Shown here: positions 8,123 to 33,315 of the stretch, piece after piece | Numbering within the stretch: position 1 is the first letter of the stretch | How the letters are laid out: each line of letters starts with the position of its first letter | NCBI GenBank assembly: GCA_016196115.1 | Contig: JACPYI010000002.1 | Location: 1 to 35,975, forward strand | Length of the DNA stretch: 35,975 nucleotides | Reading direction: 5' to 3' | From: Candidatus Sungiibacteriota bacterium | GTDB taxonomy: Bacteria; Patescibacteriota; Minisyncoccia; Sungbacterales; HO2-52-23 | The notes under the pieces: generated by a model | What the model saw: only the letters and a program-made list of their open reading frames with translations | Database searches by the model: none | Told to the model about the DNA's origin: nothing | Translations under genes and position numbers: made by a program

Positions 8123-8276
8123 TGCTCCACGGTTTGTCTGAAATCTTTTCTGTGTGGAACGCAGATTTACAATTCGTGAATCCCAAAAATAGCAGCTGGG
8201 AACTGGCTCCCGATTTGCATCGGGATCCTCAGTGCCGTTGCCAAATTTTTTGAAAATTTGGACGGCGTTGGGATTT

Positions 8277-8293
8277 TTCCAGCTGTTCCGATT
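8277..8293 (+). other. 5' arm of 16S precursor processing stem
   Basis: TTCCAGCTGTTCCGATT is a perfect reverse complement of AATCGGAACAGCTGGAA at 11482-11498. Confidence 0.85.
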
Positions 8294-8397
8294 AAGTATG
8301 GTCATCCCGACCTGTCGGGATGACCTTTATAGAGGATTTGATCCTGGTCCAGGATGAACGCTGGCGGCGTGGATAAGGCATGCAAGTCGTGCGGACA

Positions 8398-8887
8398 CAA
8401 TCGCCAACTTCTAATCGCTAATCTATAATGAAATTATGAAAATGCATTTCAGGGAATTTAAGGTCTATAGAGATGCAAAAACCTTAGTAGTTCAAACATT
8501 CCGTTTGACGAGAAAGTTTTCAAGAGAATTTTATTATTTGTCAGATCAGATAAACAGAAGTGCTTTGTCAATTGTCCTTAATATTGCCGAAGGGTCGGCT
8601 AAAGGGAGTGACAAGGACTTTAATCGATACATAAAAAATTCTCTTGGGTCAGCAACAGAACTATCTGCAGCTTTTGAAATCGCGGAAGACCTTAGGTTGA
8701 TCACCAAGGAGGAATACGATACCCTTGATGCTGAAATACAAGAAGTTATCAAACAATTGGGTGGTTTCTCGAAATATTTGCGGCGCAATGATTAATCAAT
8801 GATCGCTAATCGATAATAAAAAATTCAAGATTAGTGATTGTAGATTTCTGATTGCGTGAGCGATTGGAGATTATAAGTTGGTGATTG
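8398..8887 (+). other. Intervening sequence in the 16S V1/h6 region
   Basis: Ends pair as a 13-bp stem: CAATCGCCAACTT (8398-8410) / AAGTTGGTGATTG (8875-8887), one G-U; encloses ORF 8436-8795. Confidence 0.85.
8436..8795 (+). CDS. Four-helix-bundle (S23/IVS-encoded) protein inside the 16S IVS
   Basis: FREFKVYRDAKTLVVQTFRLT...LSDQINRSALSIVLNIAEGSAKGSDKDFNRYIKNSLGSATEL: matches the four-helix-bundle family known from rRNA intervening sequences. Confidence 0.92.
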   Translation: MKMHFREFKVYRDAKTLVVQTFRLTRKFSREFYYLSDQINRSALSIVLNIAEGSAKGSDKDFNRYIKNSLGSATELSAAFEIAEDLRLITKEEYDTLDAEIQEVIKQLGGFSKYLRRND

Positions 8888-9246
8888 CGTTAGCGGCGAA
8901 CGAGTTAGTAACACCTTGGCACTTACCTCACAGACGGGCATAACTCCGCGAAAGCGGGGCTAATTCCCGATATTATCTCCGTCGCAAGACGGCGATGAAA
9001 GGCCGCAAGGCCACTGCGAGAGAGGCCTAGGTCCTATCAGGTAGTTGGCGGGGTAACGGCCCACCAAGCCGATGACGGGTAGGGGGCGTGAGAGCGCGAC
9101 CCCCAACGGCGGAATTGAGATACGGTCCGCACACCTACGGGTGGCAGCAGTCAAGAACATTCGACAATGGGCGAAAGCCTGATCGAGCGACGCCGCGTGC
9201 AGGAAGAAGGGTTTCGGCCTGTAAACTGCTTTTCACCGGGAACAAG

Positions 9247-9416
9247 TCCGGCCCTTTTTGGATTCTTGTGTATTGTGTCATCCTCGCGAAACTTGTCCTC
9301 GTGAAAACGGGGAGCGGGGATCCAGAAAAACTGGATTCCCGATCAAGTCTGGGGGAATGACAAGGAAGATAGTAACATACTTCTTTATTTTTGTCAAGAG
9401 TCCAAAAAGGGCCGGA
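9247..9416 (+). other. Second 16S intervening sequence/helix expansion (h17 region) containing a dispersed palindrome
   Basis: 16-bp perfect closing stem TCCGGCCCTTTTTGGA (9247-9262) / TCCAAAAAGGGCCGGA (9401-9416); interior 9275-9362 matches the family-1 repeat. Confidence 0.8.
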
Positions 9417-9888
9417 TTGAGCGTACCGGTGGAATAAGAGGTTGGTAACTACGTGCCAGCACCCGCGGTAATACGTAGACCTCAAGCGTTATCCGGATTT
9501 ATTGGGCGTAAAGGGTCTCGAACACCAAAGGCGAAGGCAAACTCCTGGCCATTACCTGACACTCATGAGACGAAAGCGTGGGCAGAAAAAAGGATTAGAT
9601 ACCCTTGTATTCCACGCCGTAAACGATGCACGCTCGTTGTTCCGAGTATCGACCCTCGGAGTGACTTAGCTTACGCGTTAAGCGTGCCGCCTGGGAAGTA
9701 CGAGCGCAAGCTTAAAACTCAAAGGAATAGACGGGGATTCGCACAAGCGGTGGACCATGTGGTTCAATTCGACGGCAACCGAGGAACCTCACCAGGGCTT
9801 GAAATGGCAGTGACATTCCGGGGAAACTTGGAACTTCTCACAAGGACGCTGTCACAGGTGATGCACGGCCCTCGTCAGTTCGTGATGT

Positions 9889-10712
9889 GATCCAAAAATT
9901 CGCATCCTCGCGGAGTAATCCGCGATGTAAAACTCGGCTCATATTGGTGAAGTCCCGCAATTTGTGGGATAATACCAAGGGAAGTTGGAAAATTATATGT
10001 CGGTTGTCTTTCGAGCCCGAAAAAATCAAGAATTGATTCTCACGAATCGCCAATTTGAAATTATCATTGGCTCTCTCTTGGGAGACGCGTACCTCAGTCC
10101 GCTCGGGAAAGTTCAGTTTGAACATAGTACCAAAGCGGAAGAATATCTGAAGTGGAAATTCCAAGAACTTGATGGAGCGCGATATAAAAAAATTGGATAT
10201 GTGGAAAGAACAGTAAGCGGAAATCTTACGTTTTCTTGCCGGTTTTGGACAAGACAATTCTTTCGGGCATTACGAAACGAAATCTATAACCCTCAAGGCA
10301 AAAAATATATTTCTTCAGGATGGCTTCAAAAAATTACTCCGCTCGCTTTGGCCGTCTGGTATATGGATGACGGCCACTATGAGAAAGCAAAAAAGAGATG
10401 CATTATTGCCACTGACGGTTTTAGCGATGACGACCGAGAAAAACTGCAAAAGTTTTTGAAGGATACATTTGATCTGAAGATTACGATCTGGAGTAATGGC
10501 AAGATAGCCATGACTCAATTGGAGACACTGAAATTCTTTAAGATCATCGATCCTTTTAGAATCGAGTGCATGGCATATAAATTTCCTAACCCCTTAACGA
10601 CTAATCCCGGAAGGGGATTGATGGTCCCGACAAGATCGGGATCATAAAACGCCGAGCTCCTTCAGTATTATATTGAAGGATGAAGGTATAGTCTGGGTCT
10701 GTAAAAAGACCG
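9889..10712 (+). other. Group I intron in 16S rRNA (near E. coli ~1078)
   Basis: Removal restores GTGATGT|GAATTGTTCCCTTAAG. P1: exon GATGT (9884-9888) with IGS GCATC (9902-9906), terminal U-G. P3 CTCGGC (9933-9938)/GCCGAG (10651-10656); P7 GACTA (10599-10603)/TAGTC (10689-10693); P8 CCTTCA/TGAAGG; P9 GGTC/GACC; last nt G. Confidence 0.88.
9997..10647 (+). CDS. LAGLIDADG homing endonuclease in the group I intron
   Basis: Two LAGLIDADG-like motifs: IIIGSLLGDAYL and PLALAVWYMDDG. An alternative TTG start lies at 9985. Confidence 0.92.
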   Translation: MSVVFRARKNQELILTNRQFEIIIGSLLGDAYLSPLGKVQFEHSTKAEEYLKWKFQELDGARYKKIGYVERTVSGNLTFSCRFWTRQFFRALRNEIYNPQGKKYISSGWLQKITPLALAVWYMDDGHYEKAKKRCIIATDGFSDDDREKLQKFLKDTFDLKITIWSNGKIAMTQLETLKFFKIIDPFRIECMAYKFPNPLTTNPGRGLMVPTRSGS

Positions 10713-11481
10713 GAATTGTTCCCTTAAGTGGGGTAACGAACGCAACCCCCGTTGCATGTTATATGTGTCATGCGAGACTGCCTTCGTATAGAAGGAGGAA
10801 GGAGGGGATGACGCGAGGTCAGCGTGTCCCTTTGATGCCCTGGGCTACACACGTGGTACAATGGCGCGTACAATGGGTCGCCAAGTCGCGAGACGGAGCT
10901 AATCCCATCAAAACGCGCCCCAGTTCAGATTGGAGTCTGCAACTCGACTCCATGAAGCCGGAATCGCTAGTAAACGCAAATCAGCTACGTTGCGTTGAAT
11001 ACGTTCTCGAATCTTGTACTCACCGCCCGTCACGTTAAGGGAGCCGGGAGTGCCCGAAAGTCCGGATTCGTCCGGAATTACGGTAAGCTCGGTAACATGA
11101 ACGAAGTCGTAACAAGGCATCCGTAGCGGAAGCTGTGGATGGAACATTTCCTACTAGGGAATTTATAGAAGCGAAATACGCATGCTCGGATGGGATATAT
11201 CGCGCGGTCCTTTTCGGAACTCGGGATATGTCTTGAGCACTGCCGCTTCTCCCTAAGGTCGTTTCCCGACTCGTCGGGATATAGTGTTGGTCTTGCCCTC
11301 CTACGCTCTATGAGCTTCGGAAGGGTCTTCTTTCGTTAAAGCTTTGGAGACGTTTCTTCTCCTATTGTATTGGGAGGACTCGTCCTCCGAAGCCTTGGCG
11401 AAGGAGGAGAGCTTTAAATTAAGACCCTGCGGTTCCGTCAGTGAACGGAACGCCCTCCGACGCGCAAGCTTTGGAGGGTAC

Positions 11482-11498
11482 AATCGGAACAGCTGGAA
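11482..11498 (+). other. 3' arm of 16S precursor processing stem
   Basis: Perfect 17-bp reverse complement of 8277-8293. Confidence 0.85.
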
Positions 11499-11520
11499 GA
11501 AGACAATTTATTTTTCTTGC

Positions 11521-12928: not shown

Positions 12929-14202
12929 ATGACTATGCGTAAACATAAAAGGTATGGACAAACCGGACCCTATCGTTCCGAGGCGTTTGGACTCGACACC
13001 GATCTCGAAGAATCTCCCTACGAGCTGGAAGAGAATTTTGATAATCTGATCGCCCGTTATTTTGGGGATGTGCGCCAGTTTGATTTGCTCAACCGTGCCC
13101 AAGAGCATGCCCTGTGGAGTCGCATTGAGAGTGCGCAAAAGCGCGAACGCCGCATCTTGTGTCAAACGCCAATGGCTATTTCCGTTCTGGACGATTTTTT
13201 GGATGAAGTGCGGCATAGCGAACCACCAAAAGGTACAAGAGAAAAGCATCGTGCCTTATTTGCCCGGGAAAAAGAACAATGCATCCGTTTTGTTCAAAGC
13301 ATATCCTGCGAGGTTGACGAGATCGCGCATAGCCTGGGGGCAGCACGTTCCAGATCGGAATTGCGCGGTATATCGCGACGGTTGTTTAAGACGTGGGAAA
13401 CGCTATTGGCGTATCCTGAAGTATTTGAGAACATTCGCCAGAAGCTGCAGGAGGAGTATGACAAGAAGCAAAACGACGTTGCCCTGTCGGGAATATATCG
13501 CAGATGGCAGAAAGCCGGTCATAGACTCGAAGGGATGAAAGCCGGCATGATCCGCGCCAACCTGCGCCTGGTCATTCATATGGCGAATCGCTATCGGGGC
13601 AGCGGCGTACCGTTTCTTGACCTGATCCAAGAAGGCAATATTGGCCTGATGCGCGCGCTCGAAAAATTCGAGCCGAGCCGCGGGCTCAAATTTGTTACCT
13701 ACGCGCATTGGTGGGTGCATCAAGCAATCACTCGTGCCATTTCCCAGCAATACCGCACCGTCCGGCTCCCCAACCACATCGGTGAGCGGAAAAACAAACT
13801 GCGCGCTGCAGTGGATCGTCTCTTGAGCCAGTACGGTCGGCATCCCACCACGGAAGAATTGAGCCGCGCATTGCGTTGGACACTCGTGAAAGTGGAAGAA
13901 TTGCAAGCGGCGGTGCAGCCTGTTGTTCGTCTTCAGCAACCGTCGGACAGCGACGACGGGAATTTGATGGACACCCTGGAAGGCAGTGCCTGGCCGACTG
14001 CCTCGCCAGTTTGACGGAGCGCGAAGCCTTTATCTTGCGCCTGCGCTATGGTCTGGAGTCAGAACAACCCCACACACTGCAAGAAATCGCCGATATGCTT
14101 GAGATAAGTCGTGAGCGTGTCCGCCAGATCGAGCGGCAAGCATTTGAGAAGCTGCGCCAACCGCATCGCAGTGCCATGCTGGCCGATTTTGTCAGTCCCT
14201 AA
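12929..14202 (+). pseudogene. Sigma-70 (RpoD-like) gene with a frameshift between sigma3 and sigma4 regions
   Basis: Frame A (to 14014): NLRLVIHMANRYRGSGVPFLDLIQEGNIGLMRALEKFEPSRGLKFVTYAHWWVHQAI. Frame B (to 14202): LTEREAFILRLRYGL...TLQEIADMLEISRERVRQIERQAFEKLR. SD-like AAGAAAGGA upstream. Confidence 0.8.
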
Positions 14203-18775: not shown

Positions 18776-19000
18776 TTATCTCGTCGTATACGGCACGAGC
18801 GCCAGATACCGCGCCCGCTTAGCCGCAACAGCAAGGCGGCGCTGGTGAAAGGCGCAGAGGCCGGATTTGTGGCGGGGATATATTTTCCCCTGGCTGCTCA
18901 TAAAACGGCGCACAAGTTCTGCGTCTTTATAATCAATCACGTCGCGATTGACGGTGCAAAAATAACATTGTTTTTGTTCTTGCTGCGGTTGCGGGCGCAT
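18776..19000 (-). CDS. rpsR: 30S ribosomal protein bS18
   Basis: CYFCTVNRDVIDYKDAELVRRFMSSQGKIYPRHKSGLCAFHQRRLAVAAKRARYLALVPYT. Confidence 0.93.
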   Translation of the reverse strand: MRPQPQQEQKQCYFCTVNRDVIDYKDAELVRRFMSSQGKIYPRHKSGLCAFHQRRLAVAAKRARYLALVPYTTR

Positions 19001-19635: not shown

Positions 19636-20103
19636 TTACCTTCCCAATATCTCCTCCAATTTTTTATCGAGCGCCTCCAAATCAAGCCGTGTGTCTTCGC
19701 TTGGGATCTGGCGCACTGGATCACGCATCTCTCGCACAGGACTCTTGGCGGTTGAACCAAAGGAGGTACGCGCGCCAATCGAACGGATAAAGGGCTTTCG
19801 CTTCTCGATTTCCTCTTCAAGTATAAGGAATCGGAGCGTCTCGCCGTGTCCCTTGAATTTCTTCTCAAACTCCGCGATGCGCCCGGGCTGCAACCGGAAC
19901 GTGGTGCATCCGAAGTACGCGTTGCCTTGTTTTTTAATCTGGTATGCGAGTTTCTGTTTTCTTGGCTGCTCCGCTCTGCGAATCGTGCCTCCCAGCTCAT
20001 CAATCAGGCCGGAGAGCTTTCCCACATACGCCAAAACCTCCGTTTCGGCGAGCGCAGGGGAAAGAAGATAGGCCGCTTCGTAGTTTTTGGCATCAGAATC
20101 CAT
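19636..20103 (-). CDS. rpsF: 30S ribosomal protein bS6
   Basis: KNYEAAYLLSPAL...LGGTIRRAEQPRKQKLAYQIKKQGNAYFGCTTF; rpsF-ssb-rpsR order. Confidence 0.92.
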   Translation of the reverse strand: MDSDAKNYEAAYLLSPALAETEVLAYVGKLSGLIDELGGTIRRAEQPRKQKLAYQIKKQGNAYFGCTTFRLQPGRIAEFEKKFKGHGETLRFLILEEEIEKRKPFIRSIGARTSFGSTAKSPVREMRDPVRQIPSEDTRLDLEALDKKLEEILGR

Positions 20104-20239
20104 GACTTTTAGTATACAAAATATTAAACTCTCGCACAATATTGACTCTTTCTTTACTTTATGTTCTAATTTTAAATCAACAATCGATCCACGATCGTGT
20201 GTGAAATGTTGATTTAAATCTTAATTCGCTCGTCGTTGA

Positions 20240-28738: not shown

Positions 28739-28811
28739 TGGACCTGACGGGATTTGCACCCGTTACGCCGCTTGCGAAGGGCGGAATTTTACTACATAAA
28801 ACTACAGGCCC
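28739..28811 (-). tRNA. Atypical tRNA/tRNA-like RNA; anticodon most likely TCG (Arg) but uncertain
   Basis: Minus strand GGGCCTG TA ...CCGCC CTTCGCA AGCGG CGTA ACGGG TGCAAAT CCCGT CAGGTCC A (73 nt). Good acceptor and T arms; A/T-only D stem, no GG in D-loop, C-A mismatch closing the anticodon stem. Confidence 0.55.
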
Positions 28812-32833: not shown

Positions 32834-33088
32834 ATGAAGAAATCTTTATATATAGCAACCGAGTATGGGAGCCATTTAGTTGCGATTGAACCCGATGAAC
32901 GGCGCGGGTATGTTGTTGCCGCTCCTGCGCTCCCCGGAGTCATTACATGGGGTAAGAATCTGGCTCATGCAAAAGAAATGGTGCGAGAAGCCATTGAATT
33001 ATGTATTGAGTCGCTCGTGCAAAAGAGATCAGCTGTAAAGCCGACCTCACGTTCCAATAAATCTCAAAAGATACTGGTAAAAGTATGA
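32834..33088 (+). CDS. hicB: HicB-like antitoxin
   Basis: YVVAAPALPGVITWGKNLAHAKEMVREAIELCIESL; overlaps hicA. Confidence 0.85.
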   Translation: MKKSLYIATEYGSHLVAIEPDERRGYVVAAPALPGVITWGKNLAHAKEMVREAIELCIESLVQKRSAVKPTSRSNKSQKILVKV

Positions 33089-33315
33089 GTATCATCCCCA
33101 TAGTAACTCCGAGCGAACTCCTGTCAGTCCTGCTCAAAGCAGGATTTAAAATTATCCGGCAGAAGGGAAGCCATATCAGGGTCACCCGACCGGTTACTGG
33201 AAAAAGCACAACTATTGCCATGCATGCAAAAGATTTTTCCCGCGGTATGACCCTTAAAATTCTAAACCAAGCCGGCATCTCGACAAAAGAATTCTTAAAG
33301 CTGTTGGGGAAATAG
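33085..33315 (+). CDS. hicA: HicA-like mRNA interferase toxin
   Basis: LLSVLLKAGFKIIRQKGSHIRVTRP...LKILNQAGISTKEFLKLL. Confidence 0.88.
   Translation: MSIIPIVTPSELLSVLLKAGFKIIRQKGSHIRVTRPVTGKSTTIAMHAKDFSRGMTLKILNQAGISTKEFLKLLGK

Follow-up and report, generated by a model that had tools for sequence, protein, structure and literature searches.

In CPR bacteria, ribosomal RNA genes commonly carry insertions, which are found in 48% of 16S genes (PMC11270868), and ribosome reductions in which single rRNA helices are shortened have also been described in these organisms (PMC12641178). On the protein side, the rRNA site of uS15 comprises the junction of h20, h21 and h22 and a GU/GC motif in h22 (PMC4684408; PMC8470358), and the uS15 residues T21/G22/Q27 and H41/D48/S51 have been linked to RNA recognition (PMC4684408). 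For metagenome-assembled genomes, local assembly errors that lack the support of even one read constitute a described class (PMC7111523). The 16S rRNA gene studied here lies in a window, the whole stretch of DNA analysed, of 35,975 nucleotides at the start of a contig of 101 kb (C22). It resembles the CPR genes with insertions in having the same kinds of insert, one with an IVP ORF, one with a LAGLIDADG_2 ORF and an ORF-less stem, whereas the feature that concerns us is a loss and the published cases are insertions (PMC11270868). With the shortened helices it shares a loss of rRNA sequence within the same large group; there, however, single helices are shorter, while here several whole conserved elements are gone, and in one genome only (PMC12641178).

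A covariance-model search of the 842-kb assembly found a single 16S match in the organism's own genome, and the gene in the window matched RF00177 end to end (model positions 1-1533, 1003.9 bits). Because the h6 insert hides it, the true 5' end, GAGGATTTGATCCTGGTCC at 8332, is missed by about 480 nt in the Rfam alignment, which begins at 8815. As listed in the table, the gene contains three inserts; that in h17 is stem-like and has no ORF, and in the LAGLIDADG_2 insert (9890-10713) no Rfam intron family exceeded the threshold. The leader and the trailer together form a 20-nt processing stem that spans the whole gene, and the same leader sequence also precedes the 16S of a genome of the same genus (G001). 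For these two reasons, a chimera joining the 16S halves of two organisms was rejected. The exons outside the orphaned strand described below are 90-92% identical to those of relatives and reveal no decay elsewhere. In the 530 pseudoknot, the pair equivalent to E. coli C507-G524, with numbering assigned by hand, is G-C (window 9445 and 9462; GTGCCAGCACCCGCGG). This pair is near-universally C-G, and its change is a compensatory double one, which fits a working gene. Given the otherwise conserved exons and this change, we also rejected a 16S pseudogene. The 3' end of the gene (window 11140-11160) reads GGAACATTTCCTACTAGG, where the anti-Shine-Dalgarno core looks degenerate, as it does in some relatives.

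Coordinates of the 16S rRNA gene, its parts and related genes in the window
Feature	Position	Strand	Remark
Pre-16S processing stem, 5' arm	8274..8293	+	
16S rRNA gene (exons and three inserts)	8332..11154	+	5' end at 8332, Rfam alignment from 8815
Insert in h6 of 16S	8398..8890 (approximate ends)	+	
ORF in h6 insert: 23S_rRNA_IVP / four-helix-bundle protein	8436..8795	+	
Insert in h17 of 16S, stem extension	9247..9416	+	flanked by 22-nt inverted repeat
h20 5' strand GGGTCTC	9512..9518	+	pairs with GAGAC at 9568-9572; ordinary h20 of the order
Junction of 132-nt deletion	9518..9519	+	h21, h22 5' strand and h23/h23a with 690 loop absent
Orphaned h22 3' strand and 3' end of h23 region	9519..9556	+	as conserved as is normal for the family
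Insert near E. coli position ~1080	9890..10713 (approximate ends)	+	LAGLIDADG_2 ORF 9985-10647
Pre-16S processing stem, 3' arm	11482..11501	+	
Sigma-70-family gene	12932..14202	+	~50-nt clean deletion and frameshift at ~13985
rpsR (bS18)	18776..19000	-	intact
rpsF (bS6)	19636..20139	-	intact

At the site of the loss the window reads GGGCGTAAAGGGTCTC followed immediately by GAACACCAAAGGCGAAGGC, so that GGGTCTC (9512-9518) directly abuts GAACACC (from 9519). RF00177 sets 179 model positions against 48 nt here, leaving a gap of 131 positions; sequence is missing as one contiguous block rather than by dispersed losses, and a gene that matches RF00177 overall does not present the h21-h23 central domain with its 690 loop. 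In three genomes of the same family (G009, G005 and G004) exactly 132 nt separate GGGTCTC from GAACACC. The preliminary description, which had reported a central-domain loss of ~135 nt extending over h21-h23 and including the 690 loop, was therefore right about the absence of one block that relatives carry, while its size needs correction to 132 nt, and so does its extent: h21, the h22 5' strand and h23/h23a are gone, whereas the h22 3' strand, now without a partner, and the 3' end of the h23 region are retained (GAACACCAAAGGCGAAGGCAAACTCCTGG). The same description had h20 apparently preserved by a new GTCTC/GAGAC pairing. We discarded this idea, as that pairing is the norm for h20 in the order, whose members read GGGTCTCCAG... 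at this place. In a computed fold of the sequence as assembled h20 is still able to close, and the remaining insert folds no better than shuffled sequences (z = -0.32). No repeat or shared word that might explain a collapse is present at the junction.

Comparison with related genomes placed this gene apart. Among the same-order genomes with a match to the intact pattern, total length and spacing are the same throughout, and in the readable 16S loci of 27 relatives h19 and the 690 loop lie about 117 nt apart, or more in one. When the class was scanned, the deletion pattern occurred in 1 of 384 genomes, the organism's own, and the intact spacing in 151, a number that is also the effective denominator, the other genomes of the class either not matching the flanking words exactly or having no assembled 16S. 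A collection of 85k species, which may omit the window's own genome, yielded 13 matches to the deletion-type pattern, none with any other 16S mark nearby. The same-genus genome G001 gives no view of the region because its 16S breaks at contig ends. That gene is broken at inserts (L092 1-700 and L093 1-100), ends at the h6 insert and has a further insert at TTGTACTC (~1390). A literature search on 16S without the 690 loop returned nothing useful. The 38 orphaned nucleotides are identical to G009 at 36 of 38 positions and to G005 at as many, which is also the identity between G009 and G005 (36/38). Judged by this comparison, the orphaned h22 strand is not relaxed and has not drifted, which argues against a real loss, since a strand without its partner would drift unless the loss were very recent.

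The proteins that bind the missing block have likewise remained as they were. Genes for uS8, uS15 and uS11 are present in one intact copy each, and rpsF and rpsR do lie within the window, as had been pointed out earlier, both intact. In uS15, residues T21, G22, Q27, H41, D48 and S51 (numbered without Met1) are all in register; of the rRNA site of this protein, the 16S in the window lacks h21 and one of the two h22 strands. Hence the hallmarks of a functionally reduced rRNA, namely a relaxed or rebuilt partner and altered binding proteins, are lacking. We know of no ribosome without a 690 loop. Taken at face value, the assembled sequence, in which h20 can close, would describe a real, working 16S that has dispensed with h21, half of h22 and h23, leaving the small subunit with a radically reduced platform, and Patescibacteria ribosomes are indeed known to be reduced (PMC12641178). 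However, the gene is a single copy unique among the genomes searched, its orphaned strand is unrelaxed, all five binding proteins (uS8, uS15, uS11, bS6, bS18) are kept, what remains of the insert does not fold better than chance, and the known CPR reductions only shorten single helices (PMC12641178), so that we regard such a ribosome as extremely improbable. The remarkable reduction offered as one option in the preliminary description is thus not supported, given the presence of the block in every readable relative, the conserved strand and the intact proteins.

The block was also sought elsewhere. The 690-loop motif does not occur in the window, its degenerate form allowing <=3 mismatches had zero matches in the organism's own genome and in G001, and a probe of 132 nt taken from G005, which recovered G005 itself, found nothing in either genome at E up to 10. 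Covariance-model, DNA and motif searches of the 842-kb assembly (39 contigs) all failed to find the lost block. With no copy of it in the assembly, intron excision and a relocated piece were rejected. Scrambled rRNAs exist in some mitochondria and provide the model for a split 16S, whose h21-h23 piece would be encoded elsewhere, transcribed separately and paired in trans with the orphaned h22 3' strand. The conserved orphaned strand and the retained platform proteins are what this model requires, and the gene already harbours three inserts; nevertheless, the block is missing from the assembly by all three kinds of search despite a completeness score of 100%, no relative shows such a split, and no bacterial 16S that obtains a central piece in trans is known to us. 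Mitochondrial small-subunit rRNAs that are reduced or scrambled do show large losses or pieces in trans, but these are accompanied by changes in the proteins and by prolonged decay, and we saw neither of the two here. A split gene therefore seems very unlikely to us, and the earlier suggestion of a piece encoded elsewhere gained nothing from the genome-wide search for a separate 690-loop fragment. For the broader proposition that a living bacterium has as its sole 16S one without h21, half of h22, h23 and the 690 loop, and either works without them or obtains the piece as a separate RNA from unassembled DNA, we see only a slight chance.

A different possibility is that the deletion is genuine and belongs to a damaged allele or strain variant, while an intact second 16S was left unassembled or unbinned. 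Copies of rRNA genes are often lost from metagenome bins, and 16S genes of relatives also break at contig ends, as that of G001 does at its h6 insert. On the other hand, a single 16S was found in the genome, its exons are otherwise undecayed and the compensatory pair in the 530 pseudoknot (507=G, 524=C) points to a working gene; we consider a damaged allele improbable.

The loss is clean, affects one continuous block and is unique, and it is at odds with every other feature of the gene and with those of the ribosomal proteins. Since the block is intact in all readable relatives, the orphaned strand is conserved and the binding proteins are intact, we favour a misassembly, which among the three options of the preliminary description fits these data best. 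The 132-nt gap very probably arose as a local error in assembling the metagenome, and in the organism itself the 16S central domain is most likely of the ordinary kind. Flanking the block are two 16S stretches that are common, nearly letter for letter, to related bacteria, and within it lies the 690 loop, which is conserved even more strongly. Where several organisms are sampled together, such common stretches become tangled in the assembly graph, and the assembler may then write across them a consensus unsupported by any read; this step of the assembler is one that we infer. An alteration that is missing from all relatives and inconsistent with both the partner strand and the binding proteins is what an assembly error would look like. 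The likeness to the described local errors lies in a clean, unsupported-looking change on a good contig without Ns, in a conserved multi-copy region and a mixed sample; in contrast to them, the junction in the window has no overlap that reveals a mechanism (PMC7111523).

The quality of the assembly bears on this reading from both sides. The genome comprises 842 kb in 39 contigs with a completeness score of 100%, its 101-kb contig is continuous, and of the 167 genes that could be compared with G001 just two are frame-broken; apart from few broken genes the assembly is mostly sound. This soundness, the long contig, the lack of Ns in the window and the lack of a junction repeat speak against an assembly error. 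Two other possible errors were noted: on the same contig a clean deletion, at a distance of 4.5 kb from the 16S junction, and in the bin a contig with a foreign 23S. The deletion lies in the sigma-70-family gene, one of the two frame-broken genes, where it falls between regions 3 and 4 and leaves the downstream region 4 open and conserved. It may be a second assembly error or a fresh pseudogene, and as a true pseudogene it may count against an error in the 16S.

A true loss would make this either the first ribosome to lack a 690 loop or the first bacterial 16S whose central piece is supplied in trans, and the platform would need rethinking. If it is an error, a 16S taken from a bin with a completeness score of 100%, on an unbroken 101-kb contig and with no Ns in the window, can be short of one tenth of its conserved core. 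Such a sequence would give misleading trees and probes and would mislead any survey of reduced ribosomes.

Further observations concern the remainder of the genome. No second assembly of the same species was found, and a scan of viral contigs was also empty. The foreign 23S is on a 3.3-kb contig (C17, L032) and shares 69-80% identity with the 23S that belongs to the genome, on C20 (L031), so C17 is likely a contaminant. The own 23S is unlinked from the 16S, is followed by the 5S and contains two group I introns (L031 4280-4545 and 4920-5203). The sigma-70-family gene of the window encodes a second sigma factor, the main one being located on C7. A tRNA-like Rfam match of 43 bits with no ARAGORN call lies at 28739-28811 on the minus strand of the window, and a HicA/HicB-type toxin-antitoxin pair occupies 32834-33315.
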